From Methanosarcina sp. KYL-1 (lineage in GTDB: Archaea; Halobacteriota; Methanosarcinia; Methanosarcinales; Methanosarcinaceae), in NCBI RefSeq assembly GCF_024372725.1, contig NZ_VOUA01000014.1, positions 1 to 64,000 on the forward strand: a stretch of 64,000 bases of DNA, read 5' to 3'. The position numbers and the translations under genes were made by a program. Shown here in pieces: positions 21,362 through 27,416 of the stretch. The notes below the pieces were generated by a model. It did no database searches and was not told where the DNA came from. It was given only the letters and a program-made list of their open reading frames with translations. How positions within the stretch are numbered: the stretch's first letter is position 1; each line of letters opens with the position of its first letter.

Positions 21362-22375
21362 TCATTTCCATGTTTCATTTTCTATCTGTTTTTCAATTTC
21401 CCTTGCCAGGTTCTCTTCCGAATGGAGGTAGAAAGAGGCTGGAAGGCCTGTATTTGAAATCATGTAGAGCAGGTTCATGGTTGTCCGGTTAAGCCCGGGG
21501 AAGCAGTTCAAAAGGGCACTCCTGGAGAGCCTGACCATTGTGTCGAGGGATTTTATTCCTGTCAGAAAGGTTTTGATTTCCTGGCTTTTCCGGCTTTTTT
21601 CAAAAATAAGGTCGATCCAGGTGTTCATTTCTTCAATCAGAAACTCTCTTGTCAGGTCTTCCGTGACAATGTAGTTTCTTCCTTTCTCGATATTCCTGAA
21701 GTACTCCCTGAAACTCTCTCCCTTTGCCAGGGTATAGACCTGCCCGAATTTCCCTGTATGCGAATCTGTGGTCGCGACTATTCCTTTTCCTAACGTTTCC
21801 GCAATGGAGATTGTTAGCTCGTTTTTCAGTTTCGGTTCGTGCATGTTATATTCCAGTACCGGGAAGAGCTTTGCAAGCCCGGGCACCACTGAAGGGTTTG
21901 GTTCCTGATGGAATTCAAACCAGAACGGGTGGTTGTATATGAATGGAAGCCTGTTTTTTTTCAGGTAGTGGACAAAGCTTTTCAGGCTGTGTTCGATTTC
22001 CGCAATCTCTCTGAGTTCCTCAAACTCTTCCCGGTCCAGGTCAAAGACGTTCACATGGAGCGTGTGTCCTGCCCATTCCGGGTCGTGCACCATCATTTCA
22101 ATTCCGGTGACCAGCTTTTCCCGTTCCCAGCCCAGGATTTCGTACGCTTCAACGGTATCGTGGTCTGTAAAAGTAATGAAATCCAGCCCCTCACCAAGGG
22201 CCTTTTCATAAAGTTTCTCAGGGTGCAGGTTTCCGGCTGGCAGCACGTCAAAAGAGCAGTTCGTGTGCACGTGCAGGTCCGCCCGCTTCCAGCCGCCCTC
22301 TTCCATGAGCTCCGCTGCTCTTTCCGGTGTTATGAGCTTCTCTGTGTAATTCCCCTGCCTTTCCCCCATAGGCAT
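21362..22375 (-). CDS. PHP-domain metal-dependent phosphoesterase
   Basis: This 337-residue protein has the PHP metal-binding motifs DLHVHTNCSFD (about residue 33), FTDHDTVEA (about 71), YNHPFWF (about 145) and TTDSHTG (about 200). These place it in the PHP superfamily with DNA polymerase-associated and histidinol-phosphatase-like enzymes. The roughly 120-residue helical C-terminus is not typical of small PHP phosphatases. A TATA-like GATATAAAAC lies upstream on the minus strand (about 22420). A fragment of a related gene end is found at 14714-14797. Substrate unknown. Confidence 0.8.
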   Translation of the reverse strand: MPMGERQGNYTEKLITPERAAELMEEGGWKRADLHVHTNCSFDVLPAGNLHPEKLYEKALGEGLDFITFTDHDTVEAYEILGWEREKLVTGIEMMVHDPEWAGHTLHVNVFDLDREEFEELREIAEIEHSLKSFVHYLKKNRLPFIYNHPFWFEFHQEPNPSVVPGLAKLFPVLEYNMHEPKLKNELTISIAETLGKGIVATTDSHTGKFGQVYTLAKGESFREYFRNIEKGRNYIVTEDLTREFLIEEMNTWIDLIFEKSRKSQEIKTFLTGIKSLDTMVRLSRSALLNCFPGLNRTTMNLLYMISNTGLPASFYLHSEENLAREIEKQIENETWK

Positions 22376-22679
22376 AGAATCCTGAGATTTTAATATTTTC
22401 TGATATTTGATTGGGTTTTATATCCCTATATGTATATATTATACCCTCTTTGAGATTAAGTTTTTCCGGGAATACCAGGGCATCAGTTTAAGTACCCGGA
22501 ATATGAGCCCTTGAGTGGAGGTGCTGCATTTTTCCTGATATAATCTACTTTGAGGATTTTTTCCTTTTTGAACTCTTATTAGGCCTTATTTTTTTCTTCT
22601 CTCCGACCACCACATTTTATAAATATGCTCGAATACTTTCACATCTTTGCAAAAAACAGAAACTGTAGGATGGTTGTCT

Positions 22680-23177
22680 ATGGGGCTGCTCAGAAAATTA
22701 TCAAAAATCATGGATGTAATGCATGAAAACGAGTCCGAGGAAAAGGGAAACGACTTCGAGAGGTATGTGGTAGACCTCTTCGACGAAAAAACCTTTTCCC
22801 TCATCCAGTGGACCACGGACATGGGAAGAAAACATACCCGTTTTGTCGAATCGGACTGTGGCCCTGACCTTGTCCTGCGCTACAGGCCCACAAACGAAGT
22901 CTTCTGCATCGAGTGCAAGTTCAGGTCTTCCCTCTACAAAGACAAGCTCCAATGGTCCGAACCCGCCCAGATTGAACGCTACCGGACCTTTGCCCGGGAT
23001 AACGAGGCCCCCTTTTTCGTGTTAATAGGCCTCGGGGGAAAAGCCAGGAAACCGAAAAGGATGTTTTGCATCCCTCTCGAGGAAGCGTGGTACCCGGCAC
23101 TTTACCCCAGCGTGTTTGAAAGATTTGAGCGGGACCCGAAGAAGAAATTTTCATGGAGAAAGGGGGATTTGAATTAA
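22680..23177 (+). CDS. PD-(D/E)XK-like nuclease-domain protein, first tandem copy
   Basis: The start at ATG 22680 gives 165 residues, exactly the length of the neighbouring paralogue. The core reads GNDFERYVVDLF, then ESDCGPDLVLRY, then EVFCIECKFRS. This is the E...D...ExK arrangement of PD-(D/E)XK nucleases, followed by QIERYRTFA as a possible motif IV. The conserved C-terminus (MFCIPLEEAWYPALYPSVFERF) is not one I can name. A TATA-like TTTTATAAATATG lies at about 22615-22627. It precedes a second copy, then NurA and HerA on the same strand, so a DNA-processing role is likely. Confidence 0.7.
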   Translation: MGLLRKLSKIMDVMHENESEEKGNDFERYVVDLFDEKTFSLIQWTTDMGRKHTRFVESDCGPDLVLRYRPTNEVFCIECKFRSSLYKDKLQWSEPAQIERYRTFARDNEAPFFVLIGLGGKARKPKRMFCIPLEEAWYPALYPSVFERFERDPKKKFSWRKGDLN

Positions 23178-23427
23178 ATTTCTCAGGCCTGAACTTTTTT
23201 AAGGATTCAGGTTTTTGGCTTCTCCAGGTTATCCGGTTTTAAGCTGCAGATCTACCCCACGTTCTCACCGGTTGCGCTTGCGCAACCGGCCTTTCCCGAA
23301 AAAGGTTTGAATTATACATGAAATCAGATTTATTTTTTAAGTAGTTCTAAAAATATTTCTAAACATATATAAATCTATATATTTATGCAGAAACTTCCTC
23401 TTTTTCTGGAATCACGGAGGTTTTATC

Positions 23428-23925
23428 ATAGGGTTTCTAACTAAACTAAGTAAAGTAGTTGATGTATTACTGGAAGATGAATCCGTGGAAAAAGGGGATA
23501 ATTTTGAAAGGTGTGTAGTAGACTTATTTGATAACAGGTATTTTTCCGTCGTCCAGTGGAGCACGGACATGGCACGAAAACATGACCGATTCGTCGAGTC
23601 AGATGCCGGGCCGGATATTGTCATGCGCTACATGCCAAAAAATGAAGTTTTTTGTGTAGAATGTAAGTTCCGGTCAGATCTATATGAGGGGAAACTTCAG
23701 TGGTCCAATCCCCAGCAGTTAAGGCGTTACCAGGATTTTGCCGCTGAAAACAGGCTCCCTTTCTTCGTTGTTGTAGGGCTTGGCGGGGACCCTGACAGCC
23801 CGGAAAGGATGTTCTGCATCCCTCTGGAGGAAGCAAGGTATCCGGGGCTCTATCCGAGTGTGTTTGAAAGGTTTGAGCGGAACCCTGAGAAGAACTTTTT
23901 CTGGAAAAATGGTGTGTTGAGTTGA
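23428..23925 (+). CDS. PD-(D/E)XK-like nuclease-domain protein, second tandem copy with apparent ATA start
   Basis: This copy aligns without gaps to the previous one over 165 residues when translation starts at ATA 23428, whose counterpart is the ATG of copy 1. A ribosome-binding site CACGGAGG (23413-23420) is 7 nt before ATA. No ATG, GTG or TTG exists in frame until GTG 23485, which would remove 19 conserved residues. The motifs NFERCVVDLF, DAGPDIVMRY, EVFCVECKFRS and QQLRRYQDFA are retained. A separate TATA-like run (23363-23385) suggests its own promoter. Either a non-AUG start or a recent start-codon mutation. Confidence 0.65.
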   Translation: MGFLTKLSKVVDVLLEDESVEKGDNFERCVVDLFDNRYFSVVQWSTDMARKHDRFVESDAGPDIVMRYMPKNEVFCVECKFRSDLYEGKLQWSNPQQLRRYQDFAAENRLPFFVVVGLGGDPDSPERMFCIPLEEARYPGLYPSVFERFERNPEKNFFWKNGVLS

Positions 23926-23980
23926 TATTTCAGTTACCCACTCAATAAATATATATCACTCCTGAAAGTATCTTCTGTTC

Positions 23981-25345
23981 ATGACCCTTGAGCCCGTGCA
24001 CATGCGGAAGATCTCGGAGCTGGCAGAGAGGATTGACCGGTCTTTTGAGTTTGAGGAGCCGAAGACTGCGGCTGATATTTATAAGCTTCTCGAGGAGTTG
24101 AAGGTAGACGGGAAGGTCATCCTGAAGGCTGTGGACCGGCTCTTCAGGGGGGTGGTCAGGACCGAGCTTATGGCGGAGTGCGAAGACCCTTACCCCGTGA
24201 CCTATGCCTGCGACAGCGGGAGCACGAACCCGAAGACCTATGACAGCGGGCTTTTTGTTGACTTCTGCCACTGCGGGCTGGCTGCAACGCCTACTGATCT
24301 TGATGTCCAGAGGTACAGGACGATTGTGTGTGCGGCTTATTCTTCTTCCCGGAGTGTGGCCATGCAGGCGACTTCCGGGTGGGAGGAGTTTGATGAGGGG
24401 ATGGGACGGGCAAAGCTTGTCAGGATTGCGCCGGACGAGCTGAATAAGAAATTTCCGGACATGGTGCACAGCCTTGCCATGTACCTGGCGGAGTCGGAGC
24501 ACATTCTTTTCATGAAGGACAGGGTGGACCCTTCAGGCTTTTTCATCATGGACGGGACGGTTTACCCGAAACAGCTCATGTACTGGCTGGTGCTGGATGA
24601 CGAGGACGTAAAAATCCGGCAGAATGAGGATGCCAGGAAGGTCCTCCAGAACTACATCGATATCGTGGACCATTTCCTGGAAAAGCGGGTTCCGGTTATC
24701 GGGTTTGTGAAAAATCCCATTGACATGCAGATCATGGACAGCGTCCGGAAAAAGAGCGAAGGCTTTGACCTGCCCTGGACGCTTGACTCCCAGTTTTTCC
24801 GAAACCTCCTATCACCTGAGAAATGCGGAAGCGAGGGCTCTGGACAGGGCTCAGGAGATTGGTATTCGGGGAATTCCGGTAAGAATGGTAAAAATGGAAG
24901 GAATCCCGGCAAAAATTTCGGTTCCAGAAGCTCTTATATTACCTATACGAACTGGTTCTTGCAACCCAACAGGTTTTACGAGAAGCTGTTATCTGGGACA
25001 TCTCCCCTTGCGGCAGGCGACAGGCTCCGGCAGCAGCTTCGGCACAAATTCCCGCTGGAAGATTACGCTTTATGCTTTTTCATGCTCTACGTCCCTTCCA
25101 CGGACGTGGTCTTCAAGGTCGAGTCCCCTTACGGGCTCGTAAAAGACGATTTCCTGCGGATGCAAATTACCAAAAAGGTGCTCTTCGACCTTTCCCTTCA
25201 TGGTTTTCCCCTCACTTTAACGAAGGCGGACCACCTGGCAAAAATCCGGAAGGTGGAAAGGCAAGAGATTGACAAATTCTTTGAAAACATGAGTCCTGAT
25301 AAAGATTATAATGACACACGTTGGGGTAAGATCAGTGAAGTATGA
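23981..25345 (+). CDS. nurA: NurA nuclease
   Basis: This 454-residue NurA-domain protein has the metal-binding motif ACDSGSTNP with D78, and downstream GFFIMDGTVYPKQL supplying another acidic residue. NurA is the nuclease partner of the HerA helicase in archaeal DNA double-strand-break end resection. The ATG at 23981 is about 30 bp from a TATA box AATAAATATATATC (23945-23958), so the mRNA is probably leaderless. Residues about 285-320 are a glycine/serine/asparagine-rich insertion. The 3' end overlaps herA by 35 bp, supporting coupled production of the complex. Confidence 0.9.
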   Translation: MTLEPVHMRKISELAERIDRSFEFEEPKTAADIYKLLEELKVDGKVILKAVDRLFRGVVRTELMAECEDPYPVTYACDSGSTNPKTYDSGLFVDFCHCGLAATPTDLDVQRYRTIVCAAYSSSRSVAMQATSGWEEFDEGMGRAKLVRIAPDELNKKFPDMVHSLAMYLAESEHILFMKDRVDPSGFFIMDGTVYPKQLMYWLVLDDEDVKIRQNEDARKVLQNYIDIVDHFLEKRVPVIGFVKNPIDMQIMDSVRKKSEGFDLPWTLDSQFFRNLLSPEKCGSEGSGQGSGDWYSGNSGKNGKNGRNPGKNFGSRSSYITYTNWFLQPNRFYEKLLSGTSPLAAGDRLRQQLRHKFPLEDYALCFFMLYVPSTDVVFKVESPYGLVKDDFLRMQITKKVLFDLSLHGFPLTLTKADHLAKIRKVERQEIDKFFENMSPDKDYNDTRWGKISEV

Positions 25346-27416
25346 AGATGCCGATATCCTGGCTTTTGCCTCTGGCAAAGGAAAAAAAGCCCCGGTTCCG
25401 GATGAGGGCCCGGGGACCGAAAAAAGTCCCGAAAACAAAGCTTCAAAAGCTGCTTCAGCAGCCGGGCCCGACCCGGGTCCTTCTCTTAACCCTGTTTCAG
25501 ACTCAGTTTCAGACTCAGTTTCAGACTCTGTTTCAGACCCTGCTTCAGGCCCTTTTTCAAACCCTGTTTCAAACTCAAGTTCTGCGTCGGGTTCTTCTTC
25601 GACAGGCTCAGGCAGGCCTGCGGCTTTTGAAGACCCCCTGGAGTCTCTGGGTTCCCGTGCTCCCGAAAAGGCTGATCTTCCTTTTGAAGCCTTCCCGGCC
25701 TATGATAAAGGGGTCTCGAACATCCGGGCCCCGGTGGGAGAGGCTTTCGGGATCGTGACCACCGGGATTGACCCCCTTGAAATAACCTCTGCAGGAGCAA
25801 CGATTACCGGCTACATCACTTCTTCCCACCGGAGTGAGATCCGGCTCGGGACTTACGCTGTCGTGCCTTATGAGGGAGGAGAAAAGCTTTTTGCAAGAAT
25901 CGGAAAGCTCCAGTACCGCCAGGAATTCGCTGTGGACGATGCAACGGAAATCCATTCCCGGCGCATGCTCAATACCCGCTCAAGCCCCGTAAACGAATCT
26001 GACTACAAGTTCCTGGCCTACCTTGACCCCCTCTGCATCCTCTACCGGAAAAATGGGGGGACAGCACTAACTCGAAGGATGGCGGACAGGATTCCCCGCC
26101 CGAACACCCCTATCCTGCCTGTCCGGGACCGGATTGAGGTCCAGACAGGGCTGAACATCCCGGAAGAAGGAATTTTCCTCGGGCACCTTAGTGTGGGAGG
26201 CGAGCTCGTAAAGACTCATTCCGAGCCTGAAACCGTTGCCTACTACCTGAGGAACGACTACTCCATGGGCGACCCGCTAATCTTTCGGCATATGCTGGTC
26301 TGCGGGAGCACCGGGACCGGAAAGACCTTCCTTTCCAAAAATATCCTGCGCCAGTTCATGGCCGAAAGCAACCGTTACAGGCTGCGCAACTCTCCTGACG
26401 GGGCCCGGAAAAACCCCTGCCTGGTGATCATGGACCCTCAGGACGAATACTCCCAGATTTTCGAGGACAACGAGACCCTGAGTGAGGACGACAGGTTCAG
26501 GTTCGAGTCCGAAAAGGTGGCATACGGCCGTGTCCAGTCCACAAAGGCTTTCGTAGCAAAGGTGGAAGGGCAGACCTATCCCGGAGACAAGTCCAGAGCC
26601 GAGCAGGTAGAATTTACCATCCCCTTCTCTCTTGTGGAGCACAATTCCTGGCTGATTGCCGCAACCGGGATGTCCGAACTCCAGTACATCGGGCTTGAGG
26701 TGCTCCTTGGGGACTTCTTCAAATCAAGTGTGCCCCACACCTACCTGAACTTCATCTCCTACATTGACAATGAAGGCACACGTTCCCATTACGTTGACAG
26801 CGGGAAGCTCCACGAGTCCTCTTACGACGGGATCGTGAGGAGGGTAAAGAGCCGCTTCTTCTCGAAGGTCTTTGACCAGGCTGCTACCCCGATCACGGAA
26901 CTCCTGGACCGGATCTTCAGGCCGGGTCAGGTCTCGGTCTTTCCCACCGAGTACATCAGCGCTCCCCGGATCCGGGACCTTATAGTGCTTACCATCATGA
27001 ACCTGATCGTAGACAACAAGCTCGGCACCACCGGGACCGAGGCCATCAAGGAAACTCCTATCATCCTGGCACTGGACGAAGCCCACCGCTATCTCTCCCG
27101 GGCAAACGGGGAACACTCCCGCCTGATCATCTCACGCTTTGCAGATGCAGCCCGCCAGGGCCGAAAAGAGGGCCTCGGGCTCTTTTTGATCACCCAGGAT
27201 CCCCAGGACATCGATGATACGGTCATAAAGCAGATAAACACGAAACTGGTCCTGAACCTCAACAACGATGCCGCAATCAGTTCCTTAAAAGTCCCGAAAG
27301 AATACGAGCGCCGGATACCCTACCTCAAGAAAGGGCAGATGATCGTGCACTCCCCGGACAACAGCGACATCGTGGAAATCATCGGGCTTTCAAACTGCGT
27401 CGTAAGGCACAGATAA
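25311..27416 (+). CDS. herA: HerA-type DNA helicase/translocase with serine-rich repeat linker
   Basis: This 701-residue ATPase has Walker A GSTGTGKTFLSKN at about residues 331-343 and Walker B PIILALDEAHRYLS near 583. The C-terminal arginine-finger/sensor region includes FADAARQGRKEGLGLFLITQ. The N-terminal HAS-barrel part lies near residues 155-250. Between about residues 55 and 110 is a low-complexity linker with SVSDSVSDSVSD repeats encoded by a 12-bp repeat (25496-25570). HerA hexamers pump DNA into NurA. The overlap with nurA and the tandem nuclease genes upstream suggest one DNA-processing cluster. Confidence 0.92.
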   Translation: MTHVGVRSVKYEDADILAFASGKGKKAPVPDEGPGTEKSPENKASKAASAAGPDPGPSLNPVSDSVSDSVSDSVSDPASGPFSNPVSNSSSASGSSSTGSGRPAAFEDPLESLGSRAPEKADLPFEAFPAYDKGVSNIRAPVGEAFGIVTTGIDPLEITSAGATITGYITSSHRSEIRLGTYAVVPYEGGEKLFARIGKLQYRQEFAVDDATEIHSRRMLNTRSSPVNESDYKFLAYLDPLCILYRKNGGTALTRRMADRIPRPNTPILPVRDRIEVQTGLNIPEEGIFLGHLSVGGELVKTHSEPETVAYYLRNDYSMGDPLIFRHMLVCGSTGTGKTFLSKNILRQFMAESNRYRLRNSPDGARKNPCLVIMDPQDEYSQIFEDNETLSEDDRFRFESEKVAYGRVQSTKAFVAKVEGQTYPGDKSRAEQVEFTIPFSLVEHNSWLIAATGMSELQYIGLEVLLGDFFKSSVPHTYLNFISYIDNEGTRSHYVDSGKLHESSYDGIVRRVKSRFFSKVFDQAATPITELLDRIFRPGQVSVFPTEYISAPRIRDLIVLTIMNLIVDNKLGTTGTEAIKETPIILALDEAHRYLSRANGEHSRLIISRFADAARQGRKEGLGLFLITQDPQDIDDTVIKQINTKLVLNLNNDAAISSLKVPKEYERRIPYLKKGQMIVHSPDNSDIVEIIGLSNCVVRHR
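25496..25572 (+). repeat. 12-bp tandem repeat in the herA linker
   Basis: About six imperfect copies of GTTTCAGACTCA encode VSDS repeats between the N-terminal segment and the HAS-barrel. The unit length is a multiple of three and the reading frame is preserved. Confidence 0.8.

Follow-up and report, generated by a model that had tools for sequence, protein, structure and literature searches.

Genes at the locus

The window, the whole 64,000-nucleotide stretch of Methanosarcina sp. KYL-1 DNA that was analysed, contains two related genes, here called N1 (22680..23177) and N2 (23428..23925), which lie on the forward strand directly before nurA (23981..25345) and herA (25311..27416). N1 encodes a protein of 165 residues that is predicted, from its open frame, an AlphaFold model and Foldseek matches, to be an Hjc-like PD-(D/E)XK nuclease with E27, D63, E78 and K80 at the active site. 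N2 is its paralogue; the two proteins are 67% identical without gaps (E 4.8e-77), both frames are open over 165 codons and both carry the motif E..(P)D..ECK. The original prediction had described just such a gapless pair of 165-residue paralogues, with an E...D...ECK nuclease-type motif and on the same strand as the NurA-HerA genes that follow, and this description holds except that the start of N2 is non-standard. The product of nurA scores 21.1 bits against the Pfam NurA model, for which the cut-off is 21 bits, and that of herA matches DUF87 (38.5 bits) and HerA_C (29.1 bits). Just 55 bp separate N2 from nurA, and nurA runs 35 bp into herA; we regard both as neighbours, with nurA outside the N system. 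On the other side of N1 lies a divergent gene on the reverse strand (21362..22375), assigned by eye to the PHP type, which in Methanosarcina stays constantly close to N. TATA-like elements, matched by eye only, are present on the forward strand upstream of N1 (22616..22626) and of N2 (23364..23374), and nurA is preceded by a conserved promoter-like block of its own (CACTCAATAAATATATATC..., 23939..23980, forward strand).

Read over all 165 codons, N2 lacks a start of the ATG, GTG or TTG kind. It would begin on an ATA at 23428, at the site of the ATG of N1, with a Shine-Dalgarno-like GGAGG (23416..23420, forward strand) 7 nt ahead of it, while the first ordinary start, a GTG at 23485, would give a protein of 146 residues. 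In five relatives from one clade (L046, L053, L054, L056 and L057) the start codon of N2 is ACG, and in others it is GTG or ATG. The N-terminal peptide is conserved, with a dN/dS of 0.25 in the ACG group, a value taken over 20 codons with few changes. The non-AUG start may reflect either an inefficient, regulated kind of initiation or an intermediate stage of decay.

Predicted fold and family relationships

AlphaFold (AF2) models the domain with confidence (pLDDT 87.5, pTM 0.82), the weaker parts being the first 20 residues and a loop near 50-60. The model shows the alpha-beta core of the PD-(D/E)XK fold with the E/PD/(D/E)xK residues in place. Among known structures the best Foldseek matches were to Hjc of Archaeoglobus and Sulfolobus (E 1.1e-5, TM to target 0.67-0.71), followed by RecU (1rzn, 1zp7). 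In an alignment of 36 homologues P62, D63, E78, C79 and K80 are invariant and E27 is present in at least 90%. The model topology, the Hjc and RecU matches and this invariant pattern together support the nuclease-type fold that had been proposed, for which a structure of another kind had been named as counter-evidence. Given the fold and the catalytic residues, it is very likely that N1 and N2 are active nucleases. Both genes are under purifying selection, with dN/dS of 0.074 for N1 and 0.093 for N2 in a codon comparison, although these figures are approximate because synonymous changes have almost saturated (pS about 0.65). The unfamiliar C-terminal module proposed for these proteins dissolves into the fold itself: FCIPLEEA is predicted to form the last core beta strand (124-132) and YPSVFERF a short helix (143-149).

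Neither protein scored above the cut-off of a curated family in Pfam, NCBIfam, PADLOC or PHROGs. The profile search suggested with the original prediction thus gave PD-(D/E)XK matches, all of them below threshold: over the motif region Pfam returned PDDEXK_15 at 18.3 bits and Mrr_cat_2 at 16.6 bits, and the fused homologues described below had sub-threshold matches to YqaJ, NERD and TnsA. A resolvase PHROG also matched, at 3.4e-5 and likewise below cut-off. Even with E values of up to 1 allowed, the Hjc models PF01870 (Pfam) and NF040854 (NCBIfam) did not match N1 or N2, and a profile search of PDB sequences returned ST1444, an Hjc, alone, at E 0.78. Against the PADLOC defence-nuclease models N1 and N2 had weak sub-domain matches alone (best E 0.0016) and the fused and phage homologues tested had none, so no model there covers the family as a whole. 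No relative was confirmed in a scan of viral contigs.

The closest likeness is to Hjc (PF01870, NF040854), the best structural match, with which N shares the PD-(D/E)XK core and KGxxxE..PD..ExK in register. A profile alignment with canonical Hjc brings KGxxFE, PD and E-K into register with a probability of 76%, and is therefore supportive but short of conclusive. In contrast to Hjc, N falls below the Pfam and NCBIfam models, has a longer end made up of the FCIPLEEA strand and the YPSVFERF helix, and is patchily distributed, multi-copy and found in fused forms. RecU and the PrfA resolvases, whose fold is related to one found in phages, come next, but N is 11-13% identical to RecU and has no match to Pfam RecU. 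The Mrr and PD-(D/E)XK restriction-type nucleases (Mrr_cat_2, PDDEXK_15) resemble N over the motif region and, like the N family, include membrane-type versions, whereas N lies below their curated cut-offs (16.6 and 18.3 bits) and as a rule has no restriction-system neighbours. In its habits N recalls the putative nucleases of COG4636, which have a predicted Hjc-related PD-(D/E)XK fold, erratic distribution, tandem copies and no recurrent neighbours (PMC551604); in those mostly cyanobacterial proteins the active-site lysine has migrated, while N retains an orthodox ECK. N1 and N2 belong to an unnamed family of Hjc-like nucleases.

Distribution and gene order

About 35 of the 72 sampled Methanosarcinaceae carry N, remnants included, and there are complete Methanosarcina genomes that lack it. 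In a tree the N1 orthologues separate from those of N2 with support of 100/98, the N2 group itself being weaker (89/87). Each set spans several Methanosarcina species, and the duplication therefore predates most of the genus. Copies have often been lost or broken, leaving remnants with stops. A third and more distant copy is found on another contig of the same genome (G000:C3:233352-233801; L004:6834-7808); by eye its N-terminal extension looks membrane-spanning, and similar forms occur in other methanogens. Further homologues are found in Methanoperedens, Methanomicrobium, Bacteroidota and Riemerella phages. Some in Bacteroidota are fused to TerB-like segments (TerB below the Pfam cut-off), one in a Microgenomates MAG to a DUF6804 segment and one in an unnamed bacterial MAG to an OB-like segment (OB likewise below the Pfam cut-off). 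N is a patchily spread, unnamed family: some members stand alone, others are joined to transmembrane, TerB-like or OB-like segments. In the Riemerella phages the homologue (gp10 of RAP44, L217:4989-5441) sits between an HTH/S24 repressor-like gene and an integrase, a typical position for accessory lysogeny genes.

The nurA and herA genes are conserved together across the Methanosarcinaceae, with NurA in all 72 sampled, and HerA there is the family-wide partner of NurA. By comparison, NurA of this type was not detected in 13 N-positive genomes from other families of the order, and it also occurs in families with canonical Hjc and no N match (f13, f23 and f24; phylum samples). The distance between N and nurA ranges in relatives from 182 bp to 7.3 kb (16 loci with nurA on the same contig), the 55 bp of the window being the smallest gap. 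The genes in between vary by genome and include an aldehyde dehydrogenase, a TM-Mrr nuclease, repeat proteins and small gene pairs. Some recur, namely the aldehyde dehydrogenase (c10), a 125-residue protein (c7), the Mrr nuclease (c9) and an 88/86-residue pair (c13/c14) resembling a toxin-antitoxin module; they were considered as constant partners and rejected as variable cargo. When 62 other N loci, some of them overlapping, were searched with NurA and HerA profiles, matches were obtained in L088 only, and that locus is in fact the nurA-herA region of a Methanosarcina. A stretch of 42 bp just ahead of nurA hardly varies between the window and 29 relatives, regardless of what lies upstream, and similarity ends at the 5' edge of this block, which carries the TATA-like AAATATATA. 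Its motif CACTCAA(C/T)AAATATATA is conserved beyond the needs of a bare TATA box.

Co-occurrence, distance, intervening content, the other loci and the promoter-like block therefore indicate a single inherited arrangement and no module; across these five lines constant linkage of N with nurA-herA was not found. The neighbourhood comparison that had been proposed shows that, apart from a single locus passed down vertically in Methanosarcina and its sister genus, homologues usually lie away from herA-nurA, and the suggested functional association with HerA-NurA is, given the patchiness of N, its variable gap and cargo and the separate nurA block, not supported. Inherited gene order best explains the extra nucleases beside HerA-NurA and leaves no reason to seek a new resection or defence complex.

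The PHP-type gene was also considered as a functional partner, since its gap to N is always short (198-729 bp in all 18 loci of relatives with intact N and PHP, in Methanosarcina and the sister genus); the N loci sampled from other genera showed no relative of it next to N, and the pairing is not supported. In the same region upstream of nurA, nine Methanosarcina genomes (L047, L050, L053, L054, L056, L057, L060, L061 and L062) encode an Mrr nuclease of the membrane type that scores about 107 bits for Mrr_cat, and this region may be an insertion-tolerant site.

Likely role and alternatives

N1 and N2 would be metal-dependent DNA nucleases on a branch of the PD-(D/E)XK superfamily with an Hjc/RecU-like core, in which E27 from helix 1 together with D63, E78 and K80 from the central sheet would bind the metal and cut the DNA backbone. 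As with Hjc, the protein is probably a dimer, and it would nick or cut DNA whose structure or origin is unusual. Its place in the cell would be that of a dispensable accessory nuclease, and the order PHP, N, variable cargo and nurA-herA would be an inherited one that makes no functional operon. We infer nuclease activity, dimerisation, substrate and a defence role for N, its most likely targets being invading or aberrant DNA. That N1 and N2 are stand-alone accessory nucleases with such a role, their place beside nurA-herA being inherited, is given a probability of about one half. Patchiness, duplication with decay, membrane-type fusions and the accessory-gene position in phages would fit a role against invaders better than housekeeping; the lack of constant defence-gene neighbours at N loci counts against it, and the resemblance to Hjc suits a role in recombination equally well. 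More tentatively, and at best as a possibility, the solo and membrane-tethered forms of this Hjc-related family, which methanogens share with Bacteroidota and temperate phages, could constitute a minimal single-gene DNA defence, with N2 made from AUA or ACG in Methanosarcina.

The main rival, possible though clearly the less probable, is that N1 and N2 are accessory resolvases of branched, Holliday junction-like DNA that act in recombination beside a core resolvase. The nearest structures, Hjc and RecU, and the profile alignment with Hjc speak for it, as does the failure to detect canonical Hjc in the Methanosarcinaceae, but complete Methanosarcina genomes do without N, 53 of the 55 Methanosarcinaceae searched have a separate divergent Hjc-like protein, and membrane-type fusions would be odd for a resolvase. 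It is improbable that the genes are selfish or decaying and of no current benefit to the host: the low dN/dS of intact copies and the invariant catalytic residues argue against this, even though many remnants carry stops and several genomes have lost the canonical start codon of N2. Least probable is the idea of the original prediction, in which they serve HerA-NurA as accessory subunits or regulators. HerA and Hjc are reported to be interaction partners in S. islandicus (PMC12977600), so a physical link between HerA and an Hjc-like protein is not absurd. In the window, moreover, N and nurA share a strand and lie 55 bp apart, and the two are syntenic in many Methanosarcina. Against this, up to 7.3 kb of unrelated genes can intervene, about half of the genomes with nurA-herA lack N, N adjoins neither gene elsewhere in the loci examined, and nurA has its independent conserved promoter-like block. 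Defence pairs of HerA with a nuclease, for example HerA-DUF4297 (PMC11291478), likewise have a nuclease gene close to one for a HerA ATPase, but here HerA belongs with NurA and N has no constant link to it.

Because canonical Hjc (PF01870) was not detected in the Methanosarcinaceae, it was tempting to see N as its replacement. N was rejected as the core Holliday junction resolvase, however, as complete genomes lack it and the other Hjc-like gene is near-universal. This divergent protein of about 155 residues is single-copy in those genomes that have it (loci L199-L203, L206 and L207-L216), and it is probably the resolvase of the Methanosarcinaceae in place of Hjc. Representatives of it in other families reach 21-24 bits against the Pfam Hjc model. 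In the present genome the gene lies at G000:C22:33064-33534. This gene and the conserved non-AUG starts of N2 raise two side questions for methanogens.
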